Part shown: in pieces, positions 17,573 to 56,742 of the stretch | Position numbering within the stretch: position 1 is the stretch's first letter | Layout: every line of letters begins with the position of its first letter | NCBI RefSeq assembly: GCF_000425125.1 | Contig: NZ_KE384307.1 | Location: 408,508-472,507, forward strand | DNA length: 64,000 bases | Origin: Paenibacillus taiwanensis DSM 18679 | GTDB taxonomy: Bacteria; Bacillota; Bacilli; Paenibacillales; Paenibacillaceae | Direction: 5' to 3' | Notes under the pieces: model-generated | Database searches by the model: none | What the model saw: only the letters and a program-made list of their open reading frames with translations | Told to the model about the DNA's origin: nothing | Program-made: the position numbers and the translations under genes

Positions 17573-17610
17573 CAATCATTAAGTTCACAAATGGAACGGA
17601 CAAGTGTATA

Positions 17611-17795
17611 TGACGACTTCAGGTCCTGTCCCTAACGCAAGGAGACAGGTAACAGGGAAGCCGGTGCAAATCCGGCACGGTCCCGCCACTGTATAACGGA
17701 ATTACCCGTGATAAGCTGATATCCGACCTAGCAGGGAGGAAGCGCAATCACGAATGCCGTAAGTCAGGAAACCTGCCTGAAGACGTGACGAGCAA
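17611..17795 (+). promoter_or_regulatory. Adenosylcobalamin riboswitch
   Basis: The conserved B12-box core is present in order: AGGTCCTGTC near 17621, AACAGGGAAGCCGGTG at about 17651, CCGGCACGGTCCCGCCACTGT ending near 17692 (the GCCACTG signature), and AAGTCAGGAAACCTGCC at 17761-17777. Such RNAs bind adenosylcobalamin and shut down downstream uptake and synthesis genes. It lies ahead of btuF and should control the whole downstream operon. The aptamer ends are approximate. Confidence 0.95.
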
Positions 17796-27095: not shown

Positions 27096-27124
27096 TTGAC
27101 TATAAGCATAAACCTATATATAAT
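27096..27124 (+). promoter_or_regulatory. Promoter of opuC operon
   Basis: TTGACT and TATAAT with exactly 17 bases between them; the predicted RNA start near 27131 falls at the 5' edge of the riboswitch. Confidence 0.8.
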
Positions 27125-27129
27125 ATTAC

Positions 27130-27262
27130 ATATGCTTAATTCCCGACCAAGGGAAGCGGGGGAACCGTTTCATTGGGGCGAATCGCCATTATGGCGTAGG
27201 AATCCATCTTTTCCGAGCCCGTCAGCTAACCTCGTCAGTAGGAGATGGGTCTATTTATGATT
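27130..27262 (+). promoter_or_regulatory. c-di-AMP riboswitch (ydaO/yuaA type)
   Basis: The conserved core is clear: GCTTAATTC ... GAAGCGGGGGAACCG, TTGGGGCGAATCGC, GCGTAGGAATCC and CCGAGCCCGTCAGCTAACCT, in the order and spacing of the ydaO/yuaA motif. This RNA class binds cyclic di-AMP and usually turns off osmolyte or potassium uptake and cell-wall genes. Here a terminator follows and the regulated genes are an osmoprotectant importer. Confidence 0.92.
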
Positions 27263-51927: not shown

Positions 51928-52317
51928 TCATATGTTAACTTGATAGGCTAACGCTAATTCATCCCCAGTACGGCCGCGTATTCCCCAATTATGCTTGGGG
52001 GACTCCATAATTGTGATTTCAATATCATCTGCTCCGATATCCAGCTGCTCTGTAATGTGCTGGTATAGCAAGTGGATCAGACGTTTTTTGGTTTCGATGG
52101 AACGGCCTTCAAACATCACAATTTCGATTATCGTATATTTGGTGCTTCTGTCAGAAGGATAACTGAAGTCCTCTGGCTCCAGGTGGATAAAACGATGAAA
52201 CTTTTTGCCTGGTGGATATTGTAACGCTTCCACAATGCAGGCGTGAATAATCATCGACAATTGTGCTTGTCGCGGCTTTAATTCGGATCGAATGCCGTAT
52301 ACCTTGACTTGTCCCAT
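51928..52317 (-). CDS. Tautomerase family protein
   Basis: This 129-residue protein matches the tautomerase/MIF-like family in its longer two-repeat form: KVYGIRSELKPRQAQLSMII, KKFHRFIHLEPEDFSYPSDRS and TIIEIVMFEGRSIETKKRLI are typical. Classical tautomerases need Pro as the residue after the start Met; here it is Gly-2, so the catalytic proline is absent at this position and activity in the usual sense is doubtful. The start ATG 52317 has GGGGGCTC about 12 bases upstream. It stands alone. Confidence 0.8.
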   Translation of the reverse strand: MGQVKVYGIRSELKPRQAQLSMIIHACIVEALQYPPGKKFHRFIHLEPEDFSYPSDRSTKYTIIEIVMFEGRSIETKKRLIHLLYQHITEQLDIGADDIEITIMESPKHNWGIRGRTGDELALAYQVNI

Positions 52318-54315: not shown

Positions 54316-56493
54316 TTAGTATGCTCGTACTGCTGCTGCCCGAGTCATCGCCAACACGTTTGCTACGATCCGATATCCCGCGGCGTCTGACATCGTCAGG
54401 ATGGACTCTGGATGAAATTGGACGGCAGCAATGGACAATTCCTTATGCTCCACCGCCATCACAACCCCATCTGCTGCTATGGCAGTGACCTGCAAACACT
54501 CAGGTACTTGAGCGGCGTGTAATGAATGGTAGCGTCCAATCTTAAAGCTGGAGGGCAGTCCATCCCAGAGCGGAGTGCGCTGCGTAATAGACAGATGCGC
54601 CGGCTTGCCGTGCTGTGGATAGTCGAGCACCTCTAGTTGACCGCCAAAGTATTCGACAATCCCTTGCAAGCCTAAGCAAACGCCAAATATCGGCAGCTGG
54701 CGGTCCACGCACAGCTGTATAGTCGTGTGCAGATCAAAGTCGTTTGGTGTCCCAGGTCCTGGCGACAGGACGACAAGATCAAACGTATTATTTTGCTGAA
54801 GCAACTGCTGTGCATGCTTGGTTCTGACTGTAACCACTTCAGCGCCTGTTTGTCTGAAATAGCTGGCGAGCGTATGGACAAAGGAGTCCTCGTGGTCCAC
54901 AAACAAAATACGCTGCCCGCTCCCCGATAAATGATCTTCCTGCTCAGAAGTGTTCACTATTGTTGCACCACGAATAGCTTGAATAAGGGCCGCACCTTTC
55001 ACAAGCGTTTCTTGTTCCTCCTCAGCGGGGATAGAGTCATACAGCAGAGTGGCGCCTACTCTTACTTGGGCAATCCCATAACTCAACCTGATCGTACGGA
55101 GTGTCAGCCCCGTATTAAGATTGCCGTTAAACGTATACATGCCTACAGCGCCGCCGTACCAGCCTCGTGCGTCCGCCTCGTGGTCCTCAATCCATTGGAT
55201 CGCAGCACGCTTGGGAGCGCCTGTCACTGTAACCGCCCACATATGGGTCATAAAGGCATCTAAAGCATCAAATTCCGGTAAAAGCCTGCCTTCAATATGA
55301 TCCACCGTATGAATTAAATGGGAGTACATTTCCAGTTGCCGTCGGCCAATGACCTTGACACTGCCAGGAACACAAATTCGTGACTTATCGTTTCGATCCA
55401 CGTCTGAGCACATCGTCAATTCCGCTTCGTCCTTTTTGGAATTAAGCAAAGTACGAATCTGCTCGGCATCCTCAAGTGGAGAGGTACCACGCTTAATCGT
55501 GCCGGAGATCGGACAAGTTTCAATCCGATTTCCTTCTACGCGCACGTACATTTCAGGGGATGATCCAACCAAATGCTCATGGCCCAGATGAATAAAAAAA
55601 CCGTACGGACTTGGATTAATCGCATTTAACCGTTTAAAAACTTCAGAAGGCTTGTCATGATAAGGCTCCACGAGCGTATGTGAGGGCACCACTTCAAACA
55701 AGTTGCCCACACGGAATTCATGGACAGCTTCTTCAACGAGCTTCGCGTATTTGCCTGGTTCATAAGGCTGAGGTAAGGAATGAGCAGCATCTGTACTCGC
55801 GATCTCATTGGCAATTGTTCGTTCCATACCTTGAGTTGCGAGCCCCTCAAATTCGAAATCATAATAAAGTGTATAGGCTTGACCGATATTTCGATCCACG
55901 ATCACAATCTCATCGGGCAGGTAAAGCACAAGGTCTGTATGGGTATCGGAACGTGTATGTGTTAAGCGCAAAGACTCAAATTGAAACACAAGGTCGTATC
56001 CGAATGCACCGTATAGGCCAAGGTGGGAGTCTTCCGTCGAGTGAAATATATCTTTAAAAAGACGCATCAGTGTAAAAATAGAGGGCTGGCGTGTCCGTTC
56101 TTCTTCAAACACAACTTCGTTGGCTGATTCCATCGTTCCGAGTATGGCCGTATCGGTACTTGAATGAATGGTTAGTTCAGGTAAACGAGTAAGGTGAGGG
56201 TGAATGATGTCCAGAAGGACACCACCGCGTTCATTAAGCGCACGACATTCAAACTGCTTGCCGGAAGCACGTAGTTCCAGTGGTGGATCGGCAAAACCGA
56301 TATCCCAGCGCGAATAACGACCAGGGTACTCATAGCCGCTTGTAAACAAAGCACCTCGAACCTGATCGATTCGAGTTACGATTTTTGTGATGGATGCCTC
56401 AATTTCAGTCGGGATTAAATGGCGGGTAATGTGGATGCCGCCTTGGGTAACGTAGTTGTGGTGCTGTGTGGACAATGGAAAATGAATGCTCAT
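54316..56493 (-). CDS. trpEG: Fused anthranilate synthase TrpE-TrpG
   Basis: This 725-residue enzyme converts chorismate and glutamine to anthranilate, the first step of tryptophan synthesis. The TrpE part (about residues 1-500) has SGYEYPGRYSRWDIGFADPP, PISGTIKRG, TMCSDVDRNDKSRICVPG and AVTVTGAPKRAAIQWI. The TrpG part (about 525-715) has LSPGPGTPNDF, the nucleophile in FGVCLGLQGIVEYFGG and the His/Glu in AVQFHPESIL. Fusion in this order is known in rhizobia and in some phenazine enzymes but is unusual in Bacillales, where trpE and trpG/pabA are separate. No other trp gene is near. AAGGAGGAAGAG precedes ATG 56493 and can be sequestered in the leader. Confidence 0.9.
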   Translation of the reverse strand: MSIHFPLSTQHHNYVTQGGIHITRHLIPTEIEASITKIVTRIDQVRGALFTSGYEYPGRYSRWDIGFADPPLELRASGKQFECRALNERGGVLLDIIHPHLTRLPELTIHSSTDTAILGTMESANEVVFEEERTRQPSIFTLMRLFKDIFHSTEDSHLGLYGAFGYDLVFQFESLRLTHTRSDTHTDLVLYLPDEIVIVDRNIGQAYTLYYDFEFEGLATQGMERTIANEIASTDAAHSLPQPYEPGKYAKLVEEAVHEFRVGNLFEVVPSHTLVEPYHDKPSEVFKRLNAINPSPYGFFIHLGHEHLVGSSPEMYVRVEGNRIETCPISGTIKRGTSPLEDAEQIRTLLNSKKDEAELTMCSDVDRNDKSRICVPGSVKVIGRRQLEMYSHLIHTVDHIEGRLLPEFDALDAFMTHMWAVTVTGAPKRAAIQWIEDHEADARGWYGGAVGMYTFNGNLNTGLTLRTIRLSYGIAQVRVGATLLYDSIPAEEEQETLVKGAALIQAIRGATIVNTSEQEDHLSGSGQRILFVDHEDSFVHTLASYFRQTGAEVVTVRTKHAQQLLQQNNTFDLVVLSPGPGTPNDFDLHTTIQLCVDRQLPIFGVCLGLQGIVEYFGGQLEVLDYPQHGKPAHLSITQRTPLWDGLPSSFKIGRYHSLHAAQVPECLQVTAIAADGVVMAVEHKELSIAAVQFHPESILTMSDAAGYRIVANVLAMTRAAAVRAY

Positions 56494-56707
56494 CTGTCTC
56501 TTCCTCCTTAAAATGTGGAGAAGAGAACTGAGAAGAAGAATCCCCTAGCGTAGATAAATATATAACTTTGCTCGACTCAACTCATCTCAACGTTCTCTCT
56601 GCTCTACTCTGCTCAACTGGTATTGTGCATGAACGGCTTGCTTATCGTGCAGTCAACTGCCGAAATCGCTCGCTTTCACGCCTGTCTTAGCTTGCTCCAC
56701 TAAGATT
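56494..56707 (-). promoter_or_regulatory. trpE(G) leader with TRAP-like GAG repeats and alternative pairing
   Basis: On the minus strand the RNA should start near 56707. A hairpin TCTTAG / CTAAGA lies at its 5' end (56685-56705). Eight GAG triplets follow, five bases apart in two sets of four (plus-strand CTC at 56612, 56607, 56602, 56597 and 56586, 56581, 56576, 56571), separated by 11 bases. Downstream, CTCTTCTCC can pair with the ribosome binding site GGAGGAAGAG (56498-56525). The overlapping GTTCTCT (56522-56528) can instead pair with AGAGAAC within the GAG region (56592-56598). Confidence 0.7.
56571..56614 (-). repeat. Periodic GAG triplets (candidate TRAP binding site)
   Basis: Eight perfect GAG units on the minus strand, period five bases, two-base spacers (CA, UA, CA; AU, UU, UC). 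Imperfect triplets CAG, AAC and AAG fall at the flanking and central positions, giving about 11 units in all. Confidence 0.75.
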
Positions 56708-56713
56708 TATCTC

Positions 56714-56742
56714 ATTGTAATGAAAAAGGCCGCATTCGTCAA
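56714..56742 (-). promoter_or_regulatory. trpE(G) promoter
   Basis: On the minus strand TTGACG (56737-56742) and TACAAT (56714-56719) with a 17-base spacer; the start of RNA is predicted near 56707. Confidence 0.75.

Follow-up and report, generated by a model that had tools for sequence, protein, structure and literature searches.

A predicted TRAP-dependent translational control leader upstream of an unlinked, fused anthranilate synthase gene in Paenibacillus taiwanensis

The trpEG gene of the analysed window (the whole stretch of 64,000 nucleotides) is preceded by a leader that we read, with a probability of about 0.85, as one through which TRAP controls the translation of a fused anthranilate synthase, encoded apart from the trp operon. 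From the repeats, their conservation, the TRAP gene and the alternative pairings in models, we infer TRAP binding, its tryptophan dependence and a mainly translational repression. TRAP control, as put forward in the first-pass annotation of this DNA, is supported by the presence of MtrB together with the conserved periodic KAG triplets. According to the proposed mechanism, at low tryptophan TRAP would be inactive, the GAG repeats would be paired to the pyrimidine tract further downstream, leaving the Shine-Dalgarno (SD) region free; with ample tryptophan, the TRAP ring would wrap the repeats and the freed tract would pair with the SD, so that TrpEG would not be made. The elements of the leader are the following:

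56714..56742, minus strand: predicted promoter TTGACG-17-TACAAT (sequence scan, 10/12 matches; start expected near 56707)
56685..56705, minus strand: 5' stem-loop TCTTAG..CTAAGA with GAG in the loop (predicted fold; stem kept in the nearest relative, L003)
56627..56681, minus strand: larger second 5' hairpin domain (predicted fold; outer stem kept in L003, by eye)
56566..56619, minus strand: predicted TRAP binding site, 8 GAG and the near-misses CAG and AAG (sequence, chain scoring, profile match, conservation in L003)
56592..56598, minus strand: antisequestor arm AGAGAAC, within the repeats (complementarity and free-state fold)
56517..56539, minus strand: pyrimidine tract, able to pair with the repeats or the SD (complementarity and folds; same position in orthologues)
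56498..56509, minus strand: Shine-Dalgarno region AAGGAGGAAGAG (sequence)
54316..56493, minus strand: trpEG, fused anthranilate synthase, 725 aa (TIGR01815, NF010081, Chorismate_bind, GATase)

The eight GAG triplets described in the first-pass annotation, repeated every 5 bases in two blocks of four and accompanied by near-misses, are all present: on the minus strand they start at 56614, 56609, 56604 and 56599 in block one and at 56588, 56583, 56578 and 56573 in block two, with an 11-base step separating the blocks and the near-misses CAG (56619) and AAG (56568) lying outside them. The pyrimidine tract indeed has the two pairing options previously attributed to it, GTTCTCT (56528-56522) being complementary to AGAGAAC (56598-56592) in the repeats and CTCTTCTCC (56525-56517) to GGAGGAAGAG (56507-56498) at the SD. 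The hairpin near the predicted RNA 5' end was likewise recovered in the predicted fold, and the first 90 nt of the leader, including both 5' hairpins together, fold at a predicted -28.5 kcal/mol. Four promoter-like sites occur in the scanned 801 bases, against a shuffle mean of 1.7. Between the last GAG and the SD lie 62 nt, the ATG of trpEG is at 56493 and, in line with the earlier remark that no T-run terminator follows the repeats, the scan found no terminator-like site between the repeats and this ATG.

Repeats were scored as the number of KAG in the best chain of 11 triplets spaced by 2-3 nt, at least 6/11 being taken as the pattern. The window leader reaches 8/11, while its 200 dinucleotide shuffles have a mean of 4.5 and a maximum of 7; the 11-base step in the middle of the repeats and the count of only 8 perfect triplets are points against the reading. 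Within the family, 30 of the 394 genomes gave a trpEG match at E <= 1e-150, and 29 leaders were scored, the window's included, L031 being left out for its incomplete match. At least 6/11 KAG triplets are present in 27/29 of them and at least 7/11 in 25/29, so the comparison with related leaders suggested as a check reveals a periodic KAG pattern conserved upstream of the same gene, and a TRAP-type leader, judged on sequence, is the usual state where Paenibacillaceae carry trpEG. The two family leaders without the pattern, L027 and L028, hold 2 and 3 KAG, though both genomes have TRAP; three g1 leaders (L004, L005, L007) reach 12 KAG in one chain.

The second collection comprised the best 80 of at least 576 confirmed trpEG relatives, some from the same species as the family loci. 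A TRAP-type leader with at least 6 KAG precedes 8 of its 14 Bacillota loci (L071, L073-L075, L079, L082, L085 and L127), and the repeat string of the leader L009, from the genus-mate G004, is identical to that of Paenibacillus aquistagni L074. In a ninth Bacillota locus, L077, the 6 KAG counted extend over a T-box (shuffle p 0.06); L076 has 5 KAG (p 0.13), yet a similar tract and SD by eye. Among the remaining, non-Bacillota loci of these best 80, one of 66 (L090) scores 6 and thus reaches the pattern.

The nearest relative of the window trpEG, L003, shares 90% protein identity with it. From the repeats through the ATG the two sequences differ at 1 of 129 columns, and in the TRAP-site region at 0/57; within the first 600 bases the third codon positions differ at 56/200, and a stretch further upstream differs at 25/171. 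Both promoter hexamers are unchanged in L003, with 3 differences, all in the spacer, and the 5' stem-loop keeps its stem, with 3 differences in the loop (GAG to TAG).

A genome search for mtrB, likewise suggested earlier, retrieved a homologue: the window genome (G000; 5.25 Mb, 20 contigs) gave one PF02081 match (E 5.2e-37, 128.2 bits against a cut-off of 21.3), at L001:1489-1716. Solved TRAPs align with residues 6-75 of the encoded 75-residue TRAP, which keeps the EKLDK and KIRG stretches that contact RNA in TRAP; at positions 15 and 72 of the B. subtilis numbering, as counted by eye, it presumably has Lys and Thr. Such Lys15/Thr72 features are tied, in excerpts of PMC3184956, to likely 12-subunit TRAP rings, Paenibacillus included. 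MtrB was found in 394/394 family genomes, so that its presence cannot discriminate within the family, and co-occurrence of TRAP and trpEG inside it was set aside as uninformative evidence. For 21 of the 80 loci in the second collection the genome was searched for TRAP, and 12 have it: the 8 whose leader is of TRAP type, L076, the two T-box genomes and Syntrophomonas L080, which has no repeats before trpEG. Among these 21 genomes, TRAP was absent in L078, L081 and 7 non-Bacillota, including L090, the one non-Bacillota leader scoring 6; the leaders of the two Bacillota genomes without TRAP (L078, L081) are also without repeats. Anti-TRAP was not found in G000 at E <= 1, and the best match across 8 genomes had E 0.023. 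A C..C.G.G motif search of 26 loci of the window genome (23 T-box loci, L001, L032 and L033) hit two places, both in L047; both were rejected, one crossing stop codons and the other lying inside an apparent PheS (by eye).

Folding covered 34 leaders, many of them close relatives: 25 of the 29 from the family plus 9 further ones; L027-L031, L072, L077, L078, L080 and L081 were left out because of missing repeats, start-overlapping repeats, a T-box or an incomplete match. The repeats were barred from pairing and the resulting cost of opening the SD was compared with 60 tract shuffles per leader. Blocking raised this cost in 34/34 leaders, above the shuffle mean in 31/34; the observed rise was reached by at most 3 of 60 shuffles in 20/34 leaders and by more than 3 in 14/34. 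For 14 hand-picked representatives the mean rise was 4.9 kcal/mol against 1.8 for shuffled tracts, and 0 of 20000 combined shuffle draws reached 4.9. The window leader taken from just before the repeats showed a rise of 2.9 kcal/mol, within the shuffles (26/60 reach it), and in the full window leader, folded with no shuffle control, the SD-to-ATG cost went from 9.1 to 16.3 kcal/mol with the repeats blocked. The fold comparison suggested in the first-pass annotation therefore bears out the expectation for the set and not for the window leader alone: the models support switching between antisequestor and SD-sequestor across lineages, not beyond shuffles for that single leader. By eye, the pairing partners vary by lineage (GAGAACAGG or GAGACAGG with CCTGTTCTC; AGAGAAC with GTTCTCT; AGAAGAGC with GCTCTTCT), and beside the sequestor loop L021-L025 have an A-U pair where L004-L009 have G-C. 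Such lineage-varying partners, here compared by eye with no covariation statistic, are what a maintained structure would give; a MAFFT alignment made of 20 SD regions had too many gaps for pairs to be counted.

That the repeats are a functionless low-complexity 5-base repeat or a GA-rich stretch is very unlikely. The search that bears on this used a sequence-only TRAP-site profile of 8 rows, built from 7 relatives' trpEG leaders and the window genome's own trp operon, with the window trpEG leader excluded. Perfect (CCGAG)n runs in genome G380 match the same profile, so that caution about mimics is real. Nevertheless, in G000 the profile gave, at E <= 0.05 and with 150 of 455 first-look candidates scored, two matches: the window trpEG leader (0.00105) and the trp operon leader, itself a training row (3.6e-11), so that the only other match is a trp leader. 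Moreover, the spacer bases of 144 KAGNN units from 21 leaders, in which the KAG is fixed by how the units were picked, are mixed and G-poor (2% and 9%), indicating that the repeats are not a plain 5-base microsatellite. On these varied spacers and on the near-identity to L003 from the repeats to the ATG, a microsatellite origin was rejected.

A binding of TRAP that acts at least partly on transcription, either by terminator-less termination or by exposing untranslated mRNA to Rho or RNases, appears possible, if rather unlikely. Excerpts of PMC3913778 report that B. subtilis TRAP still cut read-through 12-fold with the stem and U-tract deleted. The earlier statement that control would be translational only agrees with the lack of a recognised terminator in the leader but is too firm on exclusivity, because B. 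subtilis TRAP can end transcription without an attenuator, as the same excerpts describe, and action through translation alone is our interpretation. Against a transcriptional output stand the missing terminator and the choice between antisequestor and SD-sequestor, which recurs across lineages in folding and points to translation. Control by another tryptophan sensor, a T-box or a riboswitch, seems extremely improbable for the window gene: Lederbergia L072 and Sporolactobacillus inulinus L077 do carry T-boxes (specifier TGG by eye) before trpEG, but scanning the window with Rfam at gathering scores yields only distant c-di-AMP and cobalamin riboswitches, and a T-box or riboswitch at the trpEG leader was discarded, with none at Rfam gathering scores and no RF00230 match upstream. 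TRAP-dependent, mainly translational control of trpEG remains the preferred reading.

The B. subtilis trp leader carries a 5' stem-loop at the transcript start, to which the predicted 5' stem-loop of the trpEG leader may correspond. In B. subtilis, TRAP is known to bring about sequestering of the trpE SD and to cover directly the ribosome site of trpG, trpP and ycbK (excerpts of PMC11255114 and PMC4347634). As in the B. subtilis trpEDCFBA leader, in the window the TRAP repeats lie upstream and the freed strand would sequester the SD; there, however, an attenuator acts on the whole operon, whereas the present leader has no recognised terminator and would serve an unlinked fused gene that exists alongside the operon. 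The predicted control resembles that of trpG, trpP and ycbK in being translational TRAP control outside the trp operon, but differs from their direct occlusion, the window repeats stopping well short of the SD and overlapping neither it nor the start codon. Among the scored leaders, start-overlapping repeats are found in L029 and L030 (7/11 KAG). T-boxes are known on trpE genes (excerpts of PMC2494555), and the leaders of L072 and L077 place tryptophan-related control on the same gene as here, but with a tRNA-sensing element and no TRAP site.

A further comparison is the trp operon leader of the same genome (L032, 11/11 KAG). Its repeats, like those of trpEG, lie downstream of a promoter-like site; unlike the trpEG leader, it has a terminator-like hairpin with a T-run before trpE, in the classical attenuator layout, so that this genome seems to combine an attenuator-type TRAP leader with a terminator-less one. 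A search at title and abstract level, with most subscription literature outside it, found no description of a TRAP leader on a fused trpEG; the mechanism is known from B. subtilis trpE, and the unlinked fused trpEG would be a target not described there. If the TRAP reading is true, the TRAP regulon would gain a target undescribed in the cited papers, in a family in which all 394 genomes examined carry TRAP, and a natural leader without recognisable terminator would offer a test case for TRAP acting through translation alone.

TrpEG (725 aa) scores 1018.8 bits with TIGR01815 (TrpE clade 3; cut-off 739.15) and 1093.2 bits with NF010081 (cut-off 645), and holds Chorismate_bind and GATase (glutamine amidotransferase) domains. 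The window genome has three TIGR00564 matches: an above-cut-off trpE directly before trpD, a 481-bit match below the cut-off, and trpEG. In an NCBIfam scan the 481-bit match scored 405.6 against the PabB-clade2 cut-off of 408.55 and is ambiguous, as is its Brevibacillus counterpart (L176); that of Pseudalkalibacillus (L177) passes PabB-clade2 (413.7). A sequence resembling the window genome's TrpE lies within 1500 bases upstream of trpD in 5 of 18 genomes (G000, G014, G299, G082, G004) and not in the other 13. Ten of these 13 trpD loci have a KAG chain reached by at most 2% of 200 shuffles, with 11/11 triplets in L221, L222 and L224; no such chain was found before trpD in L228 and L229 (g17) or L235 (Lederbergia).

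The best TIGR00564 match is trpEG itself in G001, G005, G006 and G015. In the three of these that were followed further (G001, G006 and G015), the four other fetched matches all pass pabB TIGR00553 (358-378 against 328.4 bits), beside weaker TIGR00564 matches of 130-135 bits; in these three genomes trpE is gone from the trp operon, and trpEG appears to be the sole anthranilate synthase. The best match is also trpEG in three Sporolactobacillus genomes, with further matches of 142-161 bits. Four g17 genomes have one other match, of 431-456 bits, below the TrpE and PabB cut-offs (NCBIfam); it is likely PabB, scoring higher with PabB-clade2 (379-381) than the window genome's own TrpE (337). In the three genus-mates G001, G006 and G015 (L241, L242, L243), pabB was seen within about 0.5 kb after trpEG.

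In a 55-row midpoint-rooted tree, 27 of the 29 Bacilli rows fall outside the cyanobacterial-proteobacterial group, and L029 and L030, whose repeats overlap the start codon, fall inside it with starred support. The first-pass view that such a leader is unexpected on a rhizobial-style gene is therefore only partly apt, most Bacilli rows grouping apart from the cyanobacterial and proteobacterial ones and most Paenibacillaceae leaders being of TRAP type. The occurrence on the same gene of TRAP leaders, start-overlapping repeats (L029, L030) and T-boxes (L072, L077) suggests that tryptophan control was repeatedly recruited to trpEG, in a history that stays tentative since some tree rows are long. 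A wider scenario seems to us about evenly balanced: in Bacilli, tryptophan control outside the operon would have been imposed repeatedly on the fused unlinked TrpEG, through a translational TRAP leader, through a start-overlapping TRAP site on the separately acquired L029/L030 gene and through T-boxes. In some lineages TrpEG would have displaced the operon trpE, a single TRAP pool then governing the first enzyme at the level of translation and the rest of the operon at that of transcription, with the window genome and its two enzymes as an intermediate. In such a scenario one could trace how a regulator retains control as the first enzyme of the pathway gives way to an unlinked gene.

Several further sites were observed. 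In G380, a g17 genome, (CCGAG)n microsatellites occur at several places (L205, L209, L211, L213), preceded by a similar flank ATCCGTTAG, as TRAP-site mimics. KAG repeats overlap a Tautomerase_2 gene start near 1500-1530 of L207 (G103; profile E 0.0057); the window has a tautomerase of the same Pfam family (51928-52317), for which a TRAP site was considered and dropped, no such repeats being seen upstream by eye. Weak KAG runs (E 2e-4 to 0.026) lie at methyltransferase-domain gene starts near 1500 of L208, L210 and L212 (G299, G353), L210 and L212 being alike by eye in two genera. The window also holds a c-di-AMP riboswitch (27123-27256) and a cobalamin riboswitch (17604-17794), both over Rfam gathering scores, and elsewhere in the genome a T-box precedes an SNF-family transporter gene (L040; G000:C2:628640-628898). 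Finally, a strong TRAP-site match (E 7e-9) near 1500 of L197 (G299) precedes a PLP-dependent enzyme gene, trpB-like by eye, and is perhaps a separate TRAP leader.
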